Shown: in pieces, positions 18,869-32,600 of the stretch
How the letters are laid out: each line of letters starts with the position of its first letter
Numbering within the stretch: position 1 is the stretch's first letter
Source: Planctomycetota bacterium
GTDB lineage: Bacteria > Planctomycetota > Planctomycetia > Planctomycetales > Planctomycetaceae
Length of the DNA stretch: 64,000 bases
NCBI GenBank assembly: GCA_027623235.1
Contig: JAQBVJ010000021.1
Location: forward strand, 1 to 64,000
Direction of reading: 5' to 3'
The notes under the pieces: generated by a model
The model's input: the letters and a program-made list of their open reading frames with translations, nothing else
Told to the model about the DNA's origin: nothing
Database searches by the model: none
Made by a program: the position numbers and the translations under genes

Positions 18869-21241
18869 CTACTTCACTTCCAGCCGCGCCTGGTACACCT
18901 TCTGGCGGTCGCCTCGCTGACGCAAGTCTTCGAGGATCGCTTCCACGTCGGATTCGACAAAGTCGTTGAACTTGCGACGGCCTTTGACGGTCACCTGGAC
19001 TCGCAGGTTGAAATCCACCATGTCGGGTGAGAGCCAGATGGTGTGCTCCTTCGCCGGGCTGTTGATCGCGATCGTCGTCCAGCGGTCGGAGCCGTCCTTG
19101 ATCGAGCCGGAGATTGTCCTGGGCGAGCCGGTGAATTTTACATCCGGAATCGTGTGAGCCTTCAGCCAGTAAAAGCGGTTGTTGTTCGGCCTCAGTGTTG
19201 AGATTTCGATTTCCCGCGGGTACCGCTGCCGCTCGTGCAGCTCCATCCACGCGAAGAGTCGATGGATCTCAGTGTAGAACGACTCGTAGCCGCGCCCGAC
19301 GTACTCCGCGAGGATCACGTCGTCGCCACGCAGCATCATGCTGTTGAGAGTCGGCGCGTTTCGTTCAAACTTGTCGCGGTCGAGCTGTCCGCCGATGACG
19401 TACCACGGCAGGTAACCCGCGTTCCGTCTCCAGTTCAACTTCGAAAAATTCTCAATCTGACCCGAGATCGGAATGACTCCCGCAAAGACATCGGGATGAG
19501 ACAGGCCGATGTCGAAGCACGCTTCTCCGCCGGTCCCGTGACCGGACAGGAAGATTCGATCCGAGTCGACGTTAAACCGCCGCCGCGCATCCCGGATCGA
19601 CTGCAGCACGCGGTAGTGAGTCAGCGGGCTGTAGCTGTAAGTCTGGTCGCTCTCACTGTTGTATTCCGGGGCGATCACGATGTAGCCGTGCCGCTGCGCC
19701 TGCAGTGGTTCTTCGAGAGTGCCGCCCCACCAGCGAAGCTCCCACTCCGGTTCCCGTTCGAGCGAGTGCAGCGCGACGACGACCGGATAGGTGTGATGCG
19801 GTGAGTACTCGGTTGGCAGGAGCACGTGGTAGTGGACGGGTTCTGAGTCTTCGGGGACGCCGCCAATTTCGTTGTCGACCTGAATTCGCAGCGCCTCGCC
19901 CGCCTTGATGCCTGGCGTTTCGATGACCGGCGGCAGGAACGGGATGAGCTGCATCACCGACGCCGGTCCGACCCCTTCCGTTCTCAGCAGGTCGGCGAGG
20001 ATCAGCTTGCGTTCCTGCTCGTCCACCGTCCGCAGATAATTCATCATCAGGAACCGGGCCTGCCACAGATTGACTGTCTGATCGAGCCGCCCGATCGCGT
20101 TGGTGTCACCGATGACCCAGGCAGAATACGCCAGCGCCAGCTTCTCTTCGGCCGCGACTGTTTTGTCTTCGGCGAGGGTCAGGAACGGACGCAGTCGTTT
20201 GAGCGATTCAAAGTTGAGCGAATCAGAGATCTCGCTGCGGAACGGTCGGAGCGAGTCGCGCAGCGTCTCATCCTTGATCTCGGCCTGCAGTTCGCCAAGC
20301 AGCGCCAAAGCGAGCTCGCCGCTGTCCTGAGCCTGATTGTACTCGGCCAGAATCTCGCGAACCTGACGCAGGATCGCCGCACTCATCTGCTCGGTCGGAA
20401 ACTGTTTGGCTTTACTGAAGGCCAGGTAGTGCTGTCCGCTCTGCTGTCGCCGCGTGAGCTCATCGAGCAGCCGTTGAGCCAGAAGCTGCCGCACCTCCAG
20501 CGCGAGCATTTCTGACCGTTCTTTAAGATCCGGAAAGTCCTTCGCAACCGATTCCAGTTCCTGAAGCGCCTGCAGGTAGAGCTCGGCCTGAACGTAGAAC
20601 CGCGCGATCGCGAAGCGGTCGTTCTGAGATTTCTGATCGGTGACCTCGCGAATCATCGCGTCCAGCAGTGACGTCGGGATTGAGGTCGTCGCGATGGAGT
20701 ACTCCCACGCGAGCTCGTTGAGCGCCTGAACGGTCAGGTACTGCGGAGCAATCTCGACGATGCCCTGATCAATGTGCAGCTCGCGCAAACCGCGAGCGGT
20801 GTCGAGGCCGAGCACGACCTGACGCCGCCCCTTCGCGTTAAACTGCGACGTCTCCAGAAACCGGCCGATCGATCCGAGCGTCACGGTACGAGGCCCCGTC
20901 TTTCTTTGAGGCATCTTGAATTTTTCAACCGAGCTCAACAGCGCGTCGCGGTTCGCATCGACGACGTTTCGAGTCGGCACGTAGTACCGAACCATCCCGC
21001 CATCGACGAGCGTGATCGGGTAAACGGTGACCTCACCCGCGTTCGCCTGAATCGACTTCGACACCGCCTGAATCTGAACGGGGTTGCCCTTGATGACCGT
21101 GTCATTCTTGAGGCGGACCTCACCGGCAAAGACGCAGTGAGGCAACACAACGAGACCGGCCAGCAGAAAGATGCCGCAGTGCAGACAGCAGTGCAGACAG
21201 CGGTGCAGACAGCGGTGCAGACAGCGTCTGAGCGTGAACAT
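18869..21241 (-). CDS. Exported protein with helical repeats and degenerate alpha/beta-hydrolase domain
   Basis: A 790-residue protein. The N-terminus is a signal peptide extended by Cys-Leu-His-Arg repeats encoded by a 12-bp tandem repeat. Residues 40-120 look beta-rich, and about 180-420 are helical, TPR-like. Residues 490-680 resemble PHB-depolymerase/esterase-type alpha/beta hydrolases (VVALHSLEREPEW, YIVIAPEYN, DSDRIFLSG). The nucleophile elbow reads GHGTG at residues 567-571 instead of GxSxG. The usual GHE of the catalytic His appears as GYE in GRGYESFYTEIHRLFAW. It therefore looks like a catalytically dead binding protein. The ATG at 21241 is preferred over an in-frame TTG at 21268. 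Confidence 0.75.
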   Translation of the reverse strand: MFTLRRCLHRCLHRCLHCCLHCGIFLLAGLVVLPHCVFAGEVRLKNDTVIKGNPVQIQAVSKSIQANAGEVTVYPITLVDGGMVRYYVPTRNVVDANRDALLSSVEKFKMPQRKTGPRTVTLGSIGRFLETSQFNAKGRRQVVLGLDTARGLRELHIDQGIVEIAPQYLTVQALNELAWEYSIATTSIPTSLLDAMIREVTDQKSQNDRFAIARFYVQAELYLQALQELESVAKDFPDLKERSEMLALEVRQLLAQRLLDELTRRQQSGQHYLAFSKAKQFPTEQMSAAILRQVREILAEYNQAQDSGELALALLGELQAEIKDETLRDSLRPFRSEISDSLNFESLKRLRPFLTLAEDKTVAAEEKLALAYSAWVIGDTNAIGRLDQTVNLWQARFLMMNYLRTVDEQERKLILADLLRTEGVGPASVMQLIPFLPPVIETPGIKAGEALRIQVDNEIGGVPEDSEPVHYHVLLPTEYSPHHTYPVVVALHSLEREPEWELRWWGGTLEEPLQAQRHGYIVIAPEYNSESDQTYSYSPLTHYRVLQSIRDARRRFNVDSDRIFLSGHGTGGEACFDIGLSHPDVFAGVIPISGQIENFSKLNWRRNAGYLPWYVIGGQLDRDKFERNAPTLNSMMLRGDDVILAEYVGRGYESFYTEIHRLFAWMELHERQRYPREIEISTLRPNNNRFYWLKAHTIPDVKFTGSPRTISGSIKDGSDRWTTIAINSPAKEHTIWLSPDMVDFNLRVQVTVKGRRKFNDFVESDVEAILEDLRQRGDRQKVYQARLEVK
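21176..21223. repeat. Tandem repeat, 4 x 12 bp, in coding sequence
   Basis: Four copies of GC(A/G)GTGCAGACA lie in the signal-peptide region of the preceding gene and encode RCLH-type repeats. The reading frame is kept because the unit is 12 bp. Confidence 0.9.
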
Positions 21242-21992
21242 CGACCCATCCCGTCGTGAGGCTCGCAAAGCCGGCGAAAACCGGACCGGGGCAGCAACCC
21301 GCCAATGGCTGTGCGGACCGGTGCCCCATTATTCCGCGCAGACGTGCTTTGGTCCAGGAAATCAACAGGTGAGCAGCCCATGCTCCGCCAGAAGCCCCGC
21401 GCAGACGATGAACCTGCATGACGAATACCCGTCAATCGGCTCGAACGGCATGTCTCGCTCCCTGGCGTTCAAGACAAGGTGAGGCGTCCCCCTGACGCCC
21501 ACAGTCCCGCTCCAACGCCGAAGCCAGATTCCGCGTAACAGATCACCTAAGACAGATATTCCACGCCTTAAGCTCACTGACACGATGCTGAAGCCGAGTA
21601 TTCCGCCCCTCAAGCTCCTTGTTTGAAGACAGAATAAGAATCAGCCACAGACTCAGTCCATTAAGGCGATCACCCAGCAGCTTAAGGCACTCAACCAGCA
21701 GCTTAAGGCGCTCACCCGGCAGCTTAAGGCGCTCACCCGGCAGATTAAGGCGCTCAACCGGCAGATTAAGGCGCCAAACCAGTCACTTAAGGGCTGCTCT
21801 GTTGCACTTCAGGCGCTCTCCAGCCCGATTCGAGTTCATTTCCGTGAAGATTTGGCCGGATGAGATTTCCTGCCTGGGACCGCACGCTCTCGGAAGGTCC
21901 TGGCGACAGTTCTGTCAGATGCCTGCGTCTGTGCTCGGTCGGAGGCGACGCGGTGTTCCTCGTTCGGGTCGGCGTCGCGGGGCCGCCGGCCG
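21242..21992 (-). other. Decayed intergenic DNA, possible coiled-coil gene remnant
   Basis: No intact gene is seen. On the minus strand one frame through the 21-bp array gives heptad-like units (RLKLPGE, LLVECLK). It continues as ELEGRNTRLQHRVSELKAWN, which looks like coiled coil, and is then cut by stops. This may be the remains of a repeat-rich coiled-coil gene, but no start codon and no family match is recognised. Confidence 0.3.
21661..21792. repeat. Seven TTAAGG units at exact 21-bp spacing
   Basis: TTAAGG occurs at 21661, 21682, 21703, 21724, 21745, 21766 and 21787. Between copies the sequence is close to CGCTCACCCGGCAGC. Several units contain the palindrome CTTAAG. Adjacent units differ at a few bases, most at the array ends. 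Confidence 0.9.
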
Positions 21993-22080
21993 TTAGAAGT
22001 CGCCTGGTTGATCGGAGCCGTTGATCGTCGCGAGCGCTTTCCAGGTTTTGTCGTCGATGTTCTCGCTGATGAGATGTGCT

Positions 22081-22110
22081 CGCTGATGAACTGCACGCTG
22101 ATGAACTGCA
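22081..22110. repeat. Tandem repeat, 2 x 15 bp
   Basis: CGCTGATGAACTGCA is perfectly duplicated inside the DUF1559 pseudogene; a diverged third copy lies just to the left. Confidence 0.9.
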
Positions 22111-22223
22111 CGCTGCCATCGCCGATCAGCATGTGAACTCCGCCGGTGTGCATGCCACATCGACTTGTTTTTGCATTGAGACCGGCGAGCGGATTCGCGA
22201 GCCGACTGAACTGCCGGCAGCAG

Positions 22224-22251
22224 CAACGCCACAAGAGCAACGCCACAAGAG
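22224..22251. repeat. Tandem repeat, 2 x 14 bp
   Basis: CAACGCCACAAGAG is perfectly duplicated. Its 14-bp length shifts the reading frame of the DUF1559 remnant right after the prepilin helix. Confidence 0.9.
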
Positions 22252-22313
22252 CAGCAATGATCGCAATCACGACCAGGAGTTCGATGAGAGCGTCTGCAAG
22301 TCGCAGAATGCCT

Positions 22314-22345
22314 GTCAACGGTTTCTGTCGTCAACGGTTTCTGTC
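22314..22345. repeat. Tandem repeat, 2 x 16 bp
   Basis: GTCAACGGTTTCTGTC is perfectly duplicated across the last codons and stop of the Bax-inhibitor-1 gene. Confidence 0.9.
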
Positions 22346-26688: not shown

Positions 26689-29600
26689 TTGCGTAAGCTT
26701 ACCGGTCTTTTCGTCGTTGCGGCTGTCGCCGGCACCATGTGGTATCAGTTCTCCCCAGGGACCAGTCATCCCGCATCCGCGCAGACAGGAAGTCCCGAGT
26801 CTAGTGCGTATGCCCAGACGGCTCGGACACTGATGCGGCAGGCTGAGTATGAAGCCCGACAAGGCAACATCTCCGCCGCCCGTCAGCAGGCTCTGCGAGC
26901 CAGCCGGTTCGATGTCGAGTGGGCAGAGGGCGAACTGACGCCGGGCCAGCTCCTGAGCCAGCTCAATGGAAGAGCCTCGCAGCCCGGCAGCCTCGACCCG
27001 TCGGTCGCTCGGAACCAGCCGGTTCCTCGACCACGACCCACAGCGGTCAGCCCGGTCGAAAGCCGACAGTCGTCCTTTGGCCCGGCTCCGCGAACTCAGC
27101 GGGACGCCGACCTGCCAACTTATGCCGGCGACTCTCGGAACCCGCGAGATCGCTCGATCGAACTGACCGGGGGCGAACGGCCCGCGTACAGTTCCGGGTC
27201 CGCCGCAGAACAGTTTCCCTCAACGACCAACCGGCAGGCCGCGCCGTCAGTTGACAATACTCAGCCTTTTACGCGCAGCATGGCTCGCGACTCGCAGTCA
27301 GCCCGCGTCGCAACTACTGCCCGCTCGTCAGATCGCGTGCGGGGACGAATTGACGGTTACATGCAGCAGGCCTATGACGCCTGGGACCGGGGCGACAAGA
27401 AAGCGGCCATTCAAAAGGCAAGTATCGCCGACGTTCTTGCCGGCGGTACGACTCAGTTCGCGCCAGGCGAGGAAACGCCGGCAGCTTTCATTGCTCGCGT
27501 GATGGCCGGTCAGAGCCCGACTGGCAATCGAGCCACTCCGGCGACGAATTCTGTTGTCACGGCACCGCCAGCACGCAGCTCGTTCGAGGAGCCTTCGGTC
27601 GCAGCGGCTCGCACACCGACCAGTCAGTTTGACGAACCGCGATTCGATGAAACCCCGGTTGCGGAAACTCAGAGACCGTTTGCTGCTCGACCGCAGAATC
27701 CGTTTGCTGCACCTGCAGCCGAGCCAGAACCGGCCGCTCCGGCGTTTCCGTTCGAAACCGAGAAAATGGCAACCGCTCGCCAGGAATTCACCGAGGCTGA
27801 ACCAGACCGACGCGAGTACGCGTTGAACCTGATGCGGTCAGCCCGGGAAGATATTGCCGCTAACCGGCTGGAAGCCGGCTATGAAAAAGCCCTGCTCGCA
27901 AGCGACCTGGGCCTCACATGGGGACTATTCGAGGAGACTCCGGAGAAGCTCGCCGCGGACATCACACGCCGCCTGAACTCAGGCGGAGCAGGATCACTGC
28001 AGGTTGCCTCGAACGAAGAGCCGAGCCGTCCCATTACGCAGGCTTCGACCACAGACAACGGTGCCGGCTCGGTCATTCCTGCTGACGATTCCAACGGACT
28101 GACCGATGCTCAGATTGCAAAACAACTGGTCGGTCAGGCTCGCAAACTGATGGCCGCCGGCCGATTCAGTGAAGCTCGACAGATGGCTCTGGAAGCCGAC
28201 GAAATCGATGTGCCTTACGGCCTGTTCGATGACAGTCCGCGAGTCGTGCTCAAGGAAATCGATCGCCTTTCCGGAACAACGACACTCGCAAATGCGAATC
28301 CACGACGCCAGTCCACTCCGCTTCCCGGTTCGGTGGGAACGGCTCCCGAGCCGACGATGACGAAAGAACTAACCGGGCAGAATAAGGCACGCGCGCAGGA
28401 ACTGCTGGTTGCAGCCCGCAGTGCGCTGAAGAAGGGGCAGTTTGACACGGCCCGTAAGCTCACGAACGAAGCCAGCCAGCTTGACGTCGTCTATTCGGTG
28501 TTTGATGAGCGACCGGAAAGTCTGATGTCTGACATCGCTCGCGCCGAAACGGCCGCTCAAGGCCCAACGCAGGTGGCCGAGGTTCCGACGCGAACCAGCA
28601 ACACGGGAGTTCAGCTGACAGCCGGAACTGAGCCAGAGACGGCTCCGAAACTCCCAGCTTTCGATAATCGTCCAACCGCGGAGGCCTCACCGTCCCGGCC
28701 TGTTGCCTCTGCGACGGAGCCACCCGAGATTGATCCGTTCCCGTCGACCAAACCGGCCGAGAAGCCCGTCAATCCGCGGCCGGCAGCGTTCCCCGGTACT
28801 CCGGCATTTCCAGTTTCGCAGCCAGACGGCGTCGCGAACGCGGGTGCCTCGTCACCAGGCGACACCAGTGCGGAACGCAGCAAGGAAGCCGCACGACTGC
28901 TTCGCGATGCGCGACGGCTGATCGCCACCGGCGACATTGAAGGAGCGAGGCAGAATGCTCTCGCCGCCGAACAGCTCAACGTGAACTACGGACGCTTTGA
29001 TGACACTCCGGGCAACGTCCTGGCGGTCATCGATCGCCGCGAAGGACGCACTGCTCCACCACGGGCAATGGTCGCTCGTATGAATCCGTCGGAAGAGTCG
29101 GAAGAGTCGGAAGAGTCGGAAGAGTCGGAAGAGTCGGAAGAGTCGGAAGAGTCGGAAGAGTCGACGGGCGTGTCGGATGCCGCTCGCCGGGCGGACGCTG
29201 CGAAAGAGCTTCTGCGTGACGCTCAGCGGCTCCTTGCGGCCGGCGACCTGGAAGCTGCCAAAGAAAAAACAATCGCCGCCGACAAACTCAACGTTGTGTT
29301 TGGTCTCTTCGACGACCGTCCTGCGGATGTCATGGCCGCGATCGTGCGACAGGAAACGGCTCTTGTCGCCGCAAGTGCGACAGCCTCACCCGCCGCGACC
29401 GTTGCGGGCAACGGTTCGAATTTCAAAGCGGAGCAACTGCTGAAGTCTGCTCGAGCAGACATCGATGCGGGCCGCCTGTTCGAAGCGACTCAGAAAGCCA
29501 ATCAGGTTCTCGACATGGACCTGGCCTACGGAGCACTCGACGATCGACCGGAACTCGTTCTGGCGGATGTCGCGAAAGCACAGAACGCAAACACGCGACC

Positions 29601-32600
29601 GGTCGCTTCGATCGGTGAGCCGGTTGCGGCTCCACCGGCCGCCGCTCTTGTTGTGTTCCCCGAAGAAAATTCGGCTCCGGCGATTCTGCCAGCGGTCGGA
29701 TCGTTCACCGGAGAATCTCGAGACAACATCACCGCGATTTCTCCCACCGGACTTTCCGCCGAAACGCTGTTCCGCCAGGGAGAAAACTTCCTGAAGCAGG
29801 GCAATCGGGAAGCCGCTTACCAGGCGTTCCTGGAAACCTGGCAGTCCGGTCAGAAGCTTGACGCGTACAAATCACAGCGTCTGCAGAACTACCTGCAGGA
29901 ACTTCGGCCACGTCACAGCGGCATTCAGCTGGCTTCGGGCGAAACCGAAGGCACGGTTCAGCAGGCTCGACCGATCGACGTCGCCGAGCAGCGGGACGTA
30001 CTGAAGTTTGACCGACTTCGCAGCGAGGTCCTCAACGCGATGCTGCGAGCCGATCGGCTCAAGGAATCGCGTCCGGACGAGGCCATGGAACTGCTCGACA
30101 AAACGCTTGCGAGCGTCGAGAACTCCGGCTTTGACGAGCAGCGGATCGCCGGAATGGTTCGCCAGCTCCAGCGTTCGCAGGGCTCGATCGAGGGCTACGT
30201 CGCGCGGATGAAGCCAATCGTCGAACTCCGCCAGCGAAACCAGGAAGTCAAAGACGCCATTGAAACCGAACGTCAGTACCGTATCCGGGTTGAGCAGGAA
30301 ATGGCTGACCTAGTCAACGACTACAACGACCTGATGAAGCAGAAACGATTCGCGGAAGCCCGCGTGATCGCCGAGCAGGCTCAGGCCCTGGGCGTCGACG
30401 GTGCCGTCGCGATGAACATGGTCCTGAAATCTCAGTTCGCCTACCGGATTGAGAACAACGAAAACCTGAAAGACAAAAAAGAGAATGCGATGTGGGAGAC
30501 GCTCAACGATGTTGAGCGGGCTCTGGCAGACGGCATCGTCGGGGACAACCCGGTTCACCTGCCGGATGACTGGAAGGCGAAATCCGAACGTCGCCTCGAC
30601 AAGTACGGCCGTGCGGACGCTCGCCGGCTGAGCGAAGAAGAAAAACGCATTGAGAAAAGCCTGAGCGACAAAATCTCGCTGCACTACGAGACGGCACCGC
30701 TCATCGAGGTCATCCGCTACATCCGCGACCAGGCAGGTATCAACGTCGCTGTCGACGGCCCGGCCCTTGAGGATGAAGGTGTCACGGAAAGCTCGATGGT
30801 GTCGATCGATGTTGACAACATTCGGCTTCAGAGTGCTCTGAACCTGATGCTTGAACCGCTCAACCTGGGCTACAGCATCGAGAACGAAGTGCTCATGATC
30901 ACGAGCAAGCTGAAGCAGCAGGGCCGGCTGATGGCCAATGCTTACCCGGTCGCCGACCTGGTTGTCCCGATGCGGGGCATCGGCAAAAAACCAGGCAACG
31001 TCTTTACGGATAACATGCTCACCTACGACTCGTACGGTGCGCCGAGGGTCGGCGGATTGCAGACGTCCGGTGGCCAGTTTCAGGTTCCGCCCGGTGGCTC
31101 ACCGTACTCGGCCGGACTTGACGGCGGCATGCAGTATGAAGTGGGCGGTCCGTCCGAGCAGTTCGAGTTTGAAACACTCATTGACCTGATCACGTCCGTC
31201 GTCGAGCCTGACTCATGGCAGGAAGTGGGCGGGATGGGAACACTTCGTTCGAACGAGGCAACTCTCTCGCTGGTCATTCGCCAGACTCAGCAGGTTCACC
31301 AGGAAATTTCGGACTTGCTCGAACAGTTGCGACGTTTGCAGGACCTGCAGGTGACAATCGAAGTGCGGTTGATCAGCGTCAGTGACACCTTCTTCGAACA
31401 GATCGGCATCGACTTCGACTTCGACTTCCAGGACACCGTCGGTGGCCCGGGCTTCAGCTCTGGTGGCGGTGGCCAGCAAGGTCAACAGGGTGGTGGTGGC
31501 GGTCAGGGCGGTCAGCAGCAGCAGCAGGGATCACTGACCCCGCTGCCTCCGTTCGGCTCGATCATCAGCGGCGGCCAGCAGCAGGGTCAGCAGGGTCAGC
31601 AGGGTCAGCAGGGTCAGCAGGGCCAGCAGGGCCAGCAGGGCCAGCAGGCTCAGGGAGGTGGAGCGGTTGCTCAGTTCTTTACTCCGCCACCTCAACGTGA
31701 CTTTACGGATCGGGATAACTTCAGCGGCACGATCGTCGGTCTGGCCAGTCCCGAGTCGTTTACGCAGGACCTGGACGTGGCCTTCCGACAGGGTTCGTTC
31801 GACGTCGGTGTGCCGGACTTCGGTAACTTCGATCCGACACGAGGTCTGCAGGTGGGACTTGCCATCCTGAGCGACATTGAGACCTTCTTCTTCATTCGGG
31901 CCGTCCAGTCCGATGAGCGAGCCAACCTGTTGTTCGCTCCGAAGGTGACTCTCTTCAACGGTGACACGGCCACGATCTTTGACCGGACGCAGCGACCGTT
32001 CGTGCTGGGCCTCCAGCCGACCGTCGGAGCTTTCTCGGTCGGGTTCGCTCCGCAGATCAGCTTCATCCCGGACGGCATCACGCTGACAGTCACAGCGGTT
32101 GTCTCGGCCGACCGACGCTTCGTTCGACTGGCACTCGCTCCGCAGTTCAACAACCTGGTCGAAGTGGCCACGTTCAGCACGAACGGCGGCGGCGGCGGTG
32201 GACAGGGCGGCCAGCAGGGTCAGCAGGGTCAGCAGGGCCAGGGCGGCCAGCAGGGCCAAGGTGGTCAGCAGGGCGGTGGAGGCTTCGGTGGCCAGGGTGG
32301 CCAGGGTGGCCAGGGTGGCTTCGGTGGCATCGGCGGTGGTCCTGGTCTCGTGAGACCCGCCACGTCCGGCATCGGTCGCTTTGGCCAGGCTCTCACCGGA
32401 ATGGCTGTTGCAGAGATGAATCCTCAAATGGGCTTCGGCGGCATCGGCGGCGGCCAGGGTGGCCAGGGCGGCTTCGGCGGCCAGGGTGGCGGCCAGCAGG
32501 GTCAGCAGGGTCAGCAGGGCCAGCAGGGTGCTGCATCCGGCGGCACCATCCAGCAGCCGATCGTCGAGTCCATCTCGGTCCAGACCTCGGTCAGCGTGCC

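Follow-up and report, generated by a model that had tools for sequence, protein, structure and literature searches.

A non-coding TTAAGG array with exact 21-bp phasing in a planctomycete genome, and arrays of the same period upstream of a dispersed gene family

We analyzed a stretch of 64,000 nucleotides from a Planctomycetota bacterium (assembly GCA_027623235.1, contig JAQBVJ010000021.1, positions 1 to 64,000), referred to here as the window. The motif TTAAGG starts at positions 21661, 21682, 21703, 21724, 21745, 21766 and 21787, making seven copies in exact 21-bp steps. This spacing equals two helical turns, and the regularity is far above that expected by chance. Both the start positions and Tandem Repeats Finder (21661-21774, period 21, no indels, score 172) bore out the initial annotation, which had reported seven TTAAGG motifs at regular 21-bp spacing over 21661-21792. 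The palindrome CTTAAG, which it had reported for several units, was present in four of the seven. The periodicity is wider than first noted, and the features, all assigned to the minus strand, which is that of the associated gene, are as follows.

21661..21807, minus strand: main array of seven 21-bp units, with the core TTAAGG on the plus strand and CCTTAA(G) on the minus strand
21808..21849, minus strand: two degenerate units on the side away from the gene, starting at 21808 (TTCAGG) and 21829 (TTCGAG); with 17 of 21 positions per unit identical to the copy on contig C106 (described below), the best-conserved part
21546..21614, minus strand: second, gene-proximal block with CCTAAG, CTTAAG, CTGAAG and CTCAAG at 21546, 21567, 21588 and 21609; exact 21-bp steps, out of phase with the main block
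21452..21534, minus strand: leader from the array to the gene start, containing GTCTTGAACGCCAGGGAGCGAGAC, which is identical or nearly so in the C106 copy
21362..21451, minus strand: relic of the associated gene, consisting of the start codon and about seven codons (MPFEPIDGY...), followed by unrelated sequence

The array had been described as used by no intact ORF. A 125-aa mechanical ORF (21619-21996, plus strand, TTG start) does span it, but this frame is without any sign of being a gene.

The stretch of the window between a Bax-inhibitor-like gene and a gene for a 799-aa esterase-like protein looks like gene debris. Remains of a DUF1559 (SBP_bac_10) gene at 21990-22330 (minus strand) are split between two frames, have an internal deletion and give a weak Pfam match, and they keep the C-terminal signature GDGSVQFISE. 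DUF1559 and DUF1501, both represented in the gene content, are typical planctomycete families. Near the start of the esterase-like gene, at 21179-21226, there is a near-perfect 12-bp repeat (GTGCAGACAGCG, four copies) that would encode a Cys/Leu/His-rich stretch in that gene. Nine-base tandem repeats occur at 29088-29163 and 31579-32529 (GTCGGAAGA, 8.4 copies, and arrays of CAGCAGGGT and GGTGGCCAG); the second of these groups would encode a Gln/Gly-rich protein.

We scanned the 7.4-Mb genome for three TTAAGG cores at 21-bp spacing. The window array was the sole occurrence, and the reversed control pattern gave none. One related stretch was found elsewhere in the genome, on contig C106 (L002), with 70% identity over 447 bp. 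It is the one further copy in this genome, and it lies before an intact gene for a 322-aa protein (C106:2762-3727). Over 336 bp, the periodic parts of the two copies align gap-free at approximately 65% identity; in the leader beside the array, the alignment opens gaps of 2, 1 and 5 bp within about 60 bp. Between the copies, 34 of 35 cells match in the columns of the TTAAG core, compared to 62 of 112 in those of the spacers (p = 1e-6); the core is more conserved than the intervening sequence. The homology reaches into the start codon of the 322-aa gene. Because this gene is intact in C106 and broken off after about seven codons (MPFEPIDGY) in the window, the window copy is an array without its gene.

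Two further observations concern the C106 copy. An integron integrase gene (TIGR02249, 434 bits; L002 215-1285, plus strand) lies directly upstream of its array. The final 70-150 bp of this gene for the 322-aa protein recur at three contig ends (the start of C164 and the ends of C199 and C202) with 94-100% identity to C106, indicating that the 3' end of the gene is present more than once in the genome and interrupts the assembly.

Outside the source genome, a DNA search of 119 relatives found nothing related to the window array. The three-core pattern had one match in 198 genomes (G190), which differs in sequence. Four spaced TTAAG cores, searched in GTDB genomes and IMG/VR, had many matches in other phyla among the matches listed, none of which resembled the window element by local blastn. 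Searches of plasmids, phages and viruses found no relatives.

For the 322-aa protein, neither Pfam nor NCBIfam gave a match. Its relatives have a weak fn3 match and otherwise no Pfam, NCBIfam or PDB relative. Among 170 genomes of the same taxonomic family, homologues occur in 11 genomes from five genera, with at most 11 matches per genome, and all of the genomes that carry them are drafts. No homologues were found outside that taxonomic family in 398 genomes of the class, and no viral relatives of the gene family were found. The genes are dispersed among unrelated neighbours. The proteins are acidic (pI 4.5-5.3) and without a known DNA-binding domain, and paralogues share 32-48% identity with the C106 protein.

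We found the same period upstream of most members of this family. The lag of 21 was known from the window before the other loci were fetched, and was thus not picked to fit them. Self-similarity peaked at a lag of 21 or 42 in the majority of 17 upstream regions. The median maximal-segment score was 18.8 at lag 21, compared to 2.0-2.4 at lags 18, 19, 20, 22, 23, 24 and 27, and the lag-21 score exceeded the 99th percentile of 1-kb control pieces in 18 of 20 upstream regions. Arrays were weak at two homologues (L329 and L269). With array ends set by score, the arrays comprise 4-18 units (18 at the distant paralogue L375) and lie some 20-850 bp upstream of family members of about 320 aa. Control DNA (1.1 Mb, taken from contig starts in three genomes) contained only two further non-coding arrays, L297 and L300, both of period 21 and both without the family gene. 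Periods 19, 20, 22 and 23 gave no non-coding arrays in this control DNA apart from one stretch in L351, where every lag gives a match and the sequence is probably masked. Extra lag-21 signals in L313 and L331 were set aside; they fall within long ORFs and have the appearance of ordinary coiled-coil coding sequence. Phasing of A/T at 10.5 bp, as in intrinsic curvature, was not significant (combined p = 0.08).

Some of these loci have additional features. At L300 (8436-8783), seven forward units (GCGCAGACGACTTT) precede about five inverted units, and both blocks keep 21-bp steps. The upstream regions of L324, L325 and L328 have strong inverted repeats beside the arrays (for example, GCTAGCCCCGGTT...AACCGGGGCTAGC) that are like REP-type palindromes, and some neighbours (L314, L316) resemble REP-associated transposases.

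The repeated unit differs from locus to locus: GCGATCTACGTTG at L267, CACCAATCGCTGA at L284, TCCCCGGACAAC at L288/L321 and TGGAATCGCCAT at L272/L327. Inner units are homogenised within arrays, and the core is swapped even between the orthologues L331 (CAAAGTTG) and L323 (GATCTACGTTG). Indels between paired arrays measure 21, 21, 21 and 63 bp, which are whole units. Core matches fall on one residue modulo 21 in nearly every array, with a one-base shift in L312. There are 1238 mismatches over 145 pairs of adjacent units and very few register shifts, a rarity that is partly built in, since detection favours an unbroken register; the comparison of the window with C106 is free of this bias, though limited to one pair. 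Within each unit, the conserved columns gather in a single core (combined p = 1.7e-4), with most single arrays not significant. Extra inverted units occur at the window locus, L331 and L300.

We tentatively favour, at close to an even chance, the reading that the array is a non-coding, helically phased, cis-acting DNA element and a candidate docking strip for proteins. Each unit would consist of one conserved core of about 6-12 bp and a looser spacer, placing successive cores on the same face of the helix, two turns apart. Several copies of a DNA-binding protein could then dock side by side, one per two helical turns, and control the downstream gene or organise a local nucleoprotein structure. 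Unequal recombination would gain and lose whole units and spread new core variants, so that the letters drift and selection keeps the phasing. At the window locus, the gene is gone and the array is left behind. The clustering of conserved columns within each unit, as binding sites would produce, suggests this reading, and a spacing that stays constant as the unit changes between genes points to a docking strip more than to a broken gene. The initial annotation had proposed a phased protein-binding array; its phasing and non-coding character stand (TTAAG is kept in C106, and about 20 related genes have the period in their upstream regions), and the binding we infer.

Several observations weigh against the docking strip. 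The family protein, being acidic and having no known DNA-binding domain, is an unlikely binder. The turnover of the core between L331 and L323 is unlike what a fixed binder would leave. The clustering of cores reaches significance in combination and mostly not in single arrays, and there are the gene-less arrays L297 and L300 and the weak arrays at L329 and L269.

The principal alternative is a minisatellite that has no function, which we regard as possible, if somewhat doubtful. Slippage or unequal recombination would make and homogenise the units, the array would descend with the gene family, and 21 bp would be the ancestral unit length. Length changes by whole units, homogenised inner units and orphan arrays are all consistent with this explanation, as is the weak consensus shared by several loci (CACCAATCG...), which is expected from common descent. 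Like promoter VNTRs and minisatellites, the arrays are tandem, lie upstream of genes, change length by whole units and have homogenised units; they differ in that the unit is fixed at 21 bp over about 20 loci without conservation of its sequence. Also against a minisatellite, the periodicity has been kept at nearly every locus in spite of the divergence among paralogues, register shifts are very rare relative to mismatches, cores are more conserved than spacers, and the 1.1 Mb of control DNA is without comparable intergenic arrays of other periods.

The units could instead act as RNA, in a structured or protein-binding 5' UTR. The position upstream of the gene and on its strand, the extra inverted units at three loci, and the good folding of some upstream regions point in this direction. 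However, there is no fold common to the loci, and several regions fold no better than shuffled sequences (z = -0.5 for L284, -0.3 for L270, -1.5 for the window and +2.0 for L039). For the most part, the strongest z-scores trace to hairpins beyond the arrays, and the window copy has no Rfam match. We consider a transcribed leader improbable.

A site for recombination or mobility, where a recombinase recognises the end of a mobile module, would fit the dispersal of array and gene among unrelated neighbours, the integron integrase beside the C106 copy, and the forward and inverted blocks at L300. It appears quite improbable, as inspection of ORFs revealed no recombinase as a common neighbour of the other loci, inverted blocks are not consistently present downstream of the gene, and no plasmid, phage or viral relatives were found. 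An integron attI/attC site in particular was rejected; an integrase neighbour is present at C106, and the same inspection of ORFs showed none at the other loci.

The least probable explanation, and a very improbable one, is a gene for a heptad coiled-coil peptide, relic or functioning, on either strand (21 bp is seven codons). Some arrays do have a heptad-like open frame (for example, L287, LLQTLESVLQTLDELLQTVE), and the minus-strand frames of the window and C106 copies end at aligned stop codons. The tests for coding were negative: four paired arrays showed no codon-position bias in any frame, stop-free frames were as frequent as expected (22 compared to 21.9 in column permutations), synonymous change was not enriched (p = 0.9998), and heptad amphipathicity was not significant (p = 0.09). 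Open frames also fall on differing strands and in differing frames from locus to locus. On codon position, stop-free frames, synonymous change and amphipathicity, we rejected coding on either strand, and the coiled-coil-looking peptides in single frames are a product of the 21-bp period itself. Intact coiled-coil homologues carrying the units in frame, which the initial annotation had named as refuting evidence, did not turn up in this analysis, which judged coding by substitution patterns. The initial annotation had raised the possibility of a coiled-coil gene relic on the minus strand. The start of a downstream gene, that of the 322-aa protein, is indeed present, but a relic of the coiled-coil type is not supported, given the outcome of these tests.

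Iteron arrays of plasmid replication origins consist of direct repeats of about 17-22 bp, with one binding site per two helical turns. Likewise, the arrays described here are direct repeats that share an orientation, adjoin a gene and have a sequence specific to the locus; they differ in being chromosomal and several per genome, with no plasmid or phage relatives found. Nor does the adjacent gene encode a Rep initiator; its acidic product has no Pfam, NCBIfam or PDB relative beyond the weak fn3 match. A second comparison is H-NS at proV, where two identical high-affinity sites lie about 10 turns apart (PMC5418058). There, too, sites are phased on one helix face, allowing cooperative assembly, whereas each array here has 4-18 putative sites two turns apart and a motif private to its locus.

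The array is thus non-coding, with a period of exactly 21 bp, length changes by whole units, a tie to one gene family and a unit private to each locus. An extension of the docking-strip reading, which we consider less likely than not, is that the arrays serve as private addresses: each member of the dispersed family would have its own phased strip of 4-18 putative sites, with the spacing selected and the sequence drifting or rewritten as a block. If so, there would have to be a binder that reads phasing over letters, or a set of co-evolving binders. Our literature searches found no description of a 21-bp phased array pattern.

The usual regulatory arrays are recognised by their letters; here, an exact two-turn period is conserved across about 20 loci and several genera with the letters changing. 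If selection for phasing is real, then searches for sequence motifs would miss such arrays altogether, and a simple lag scan would find them. The arrays mark an unannotated multi-copy gene family, and they are a clean system for asking if helical phase alone is selected in bacterial DNA.
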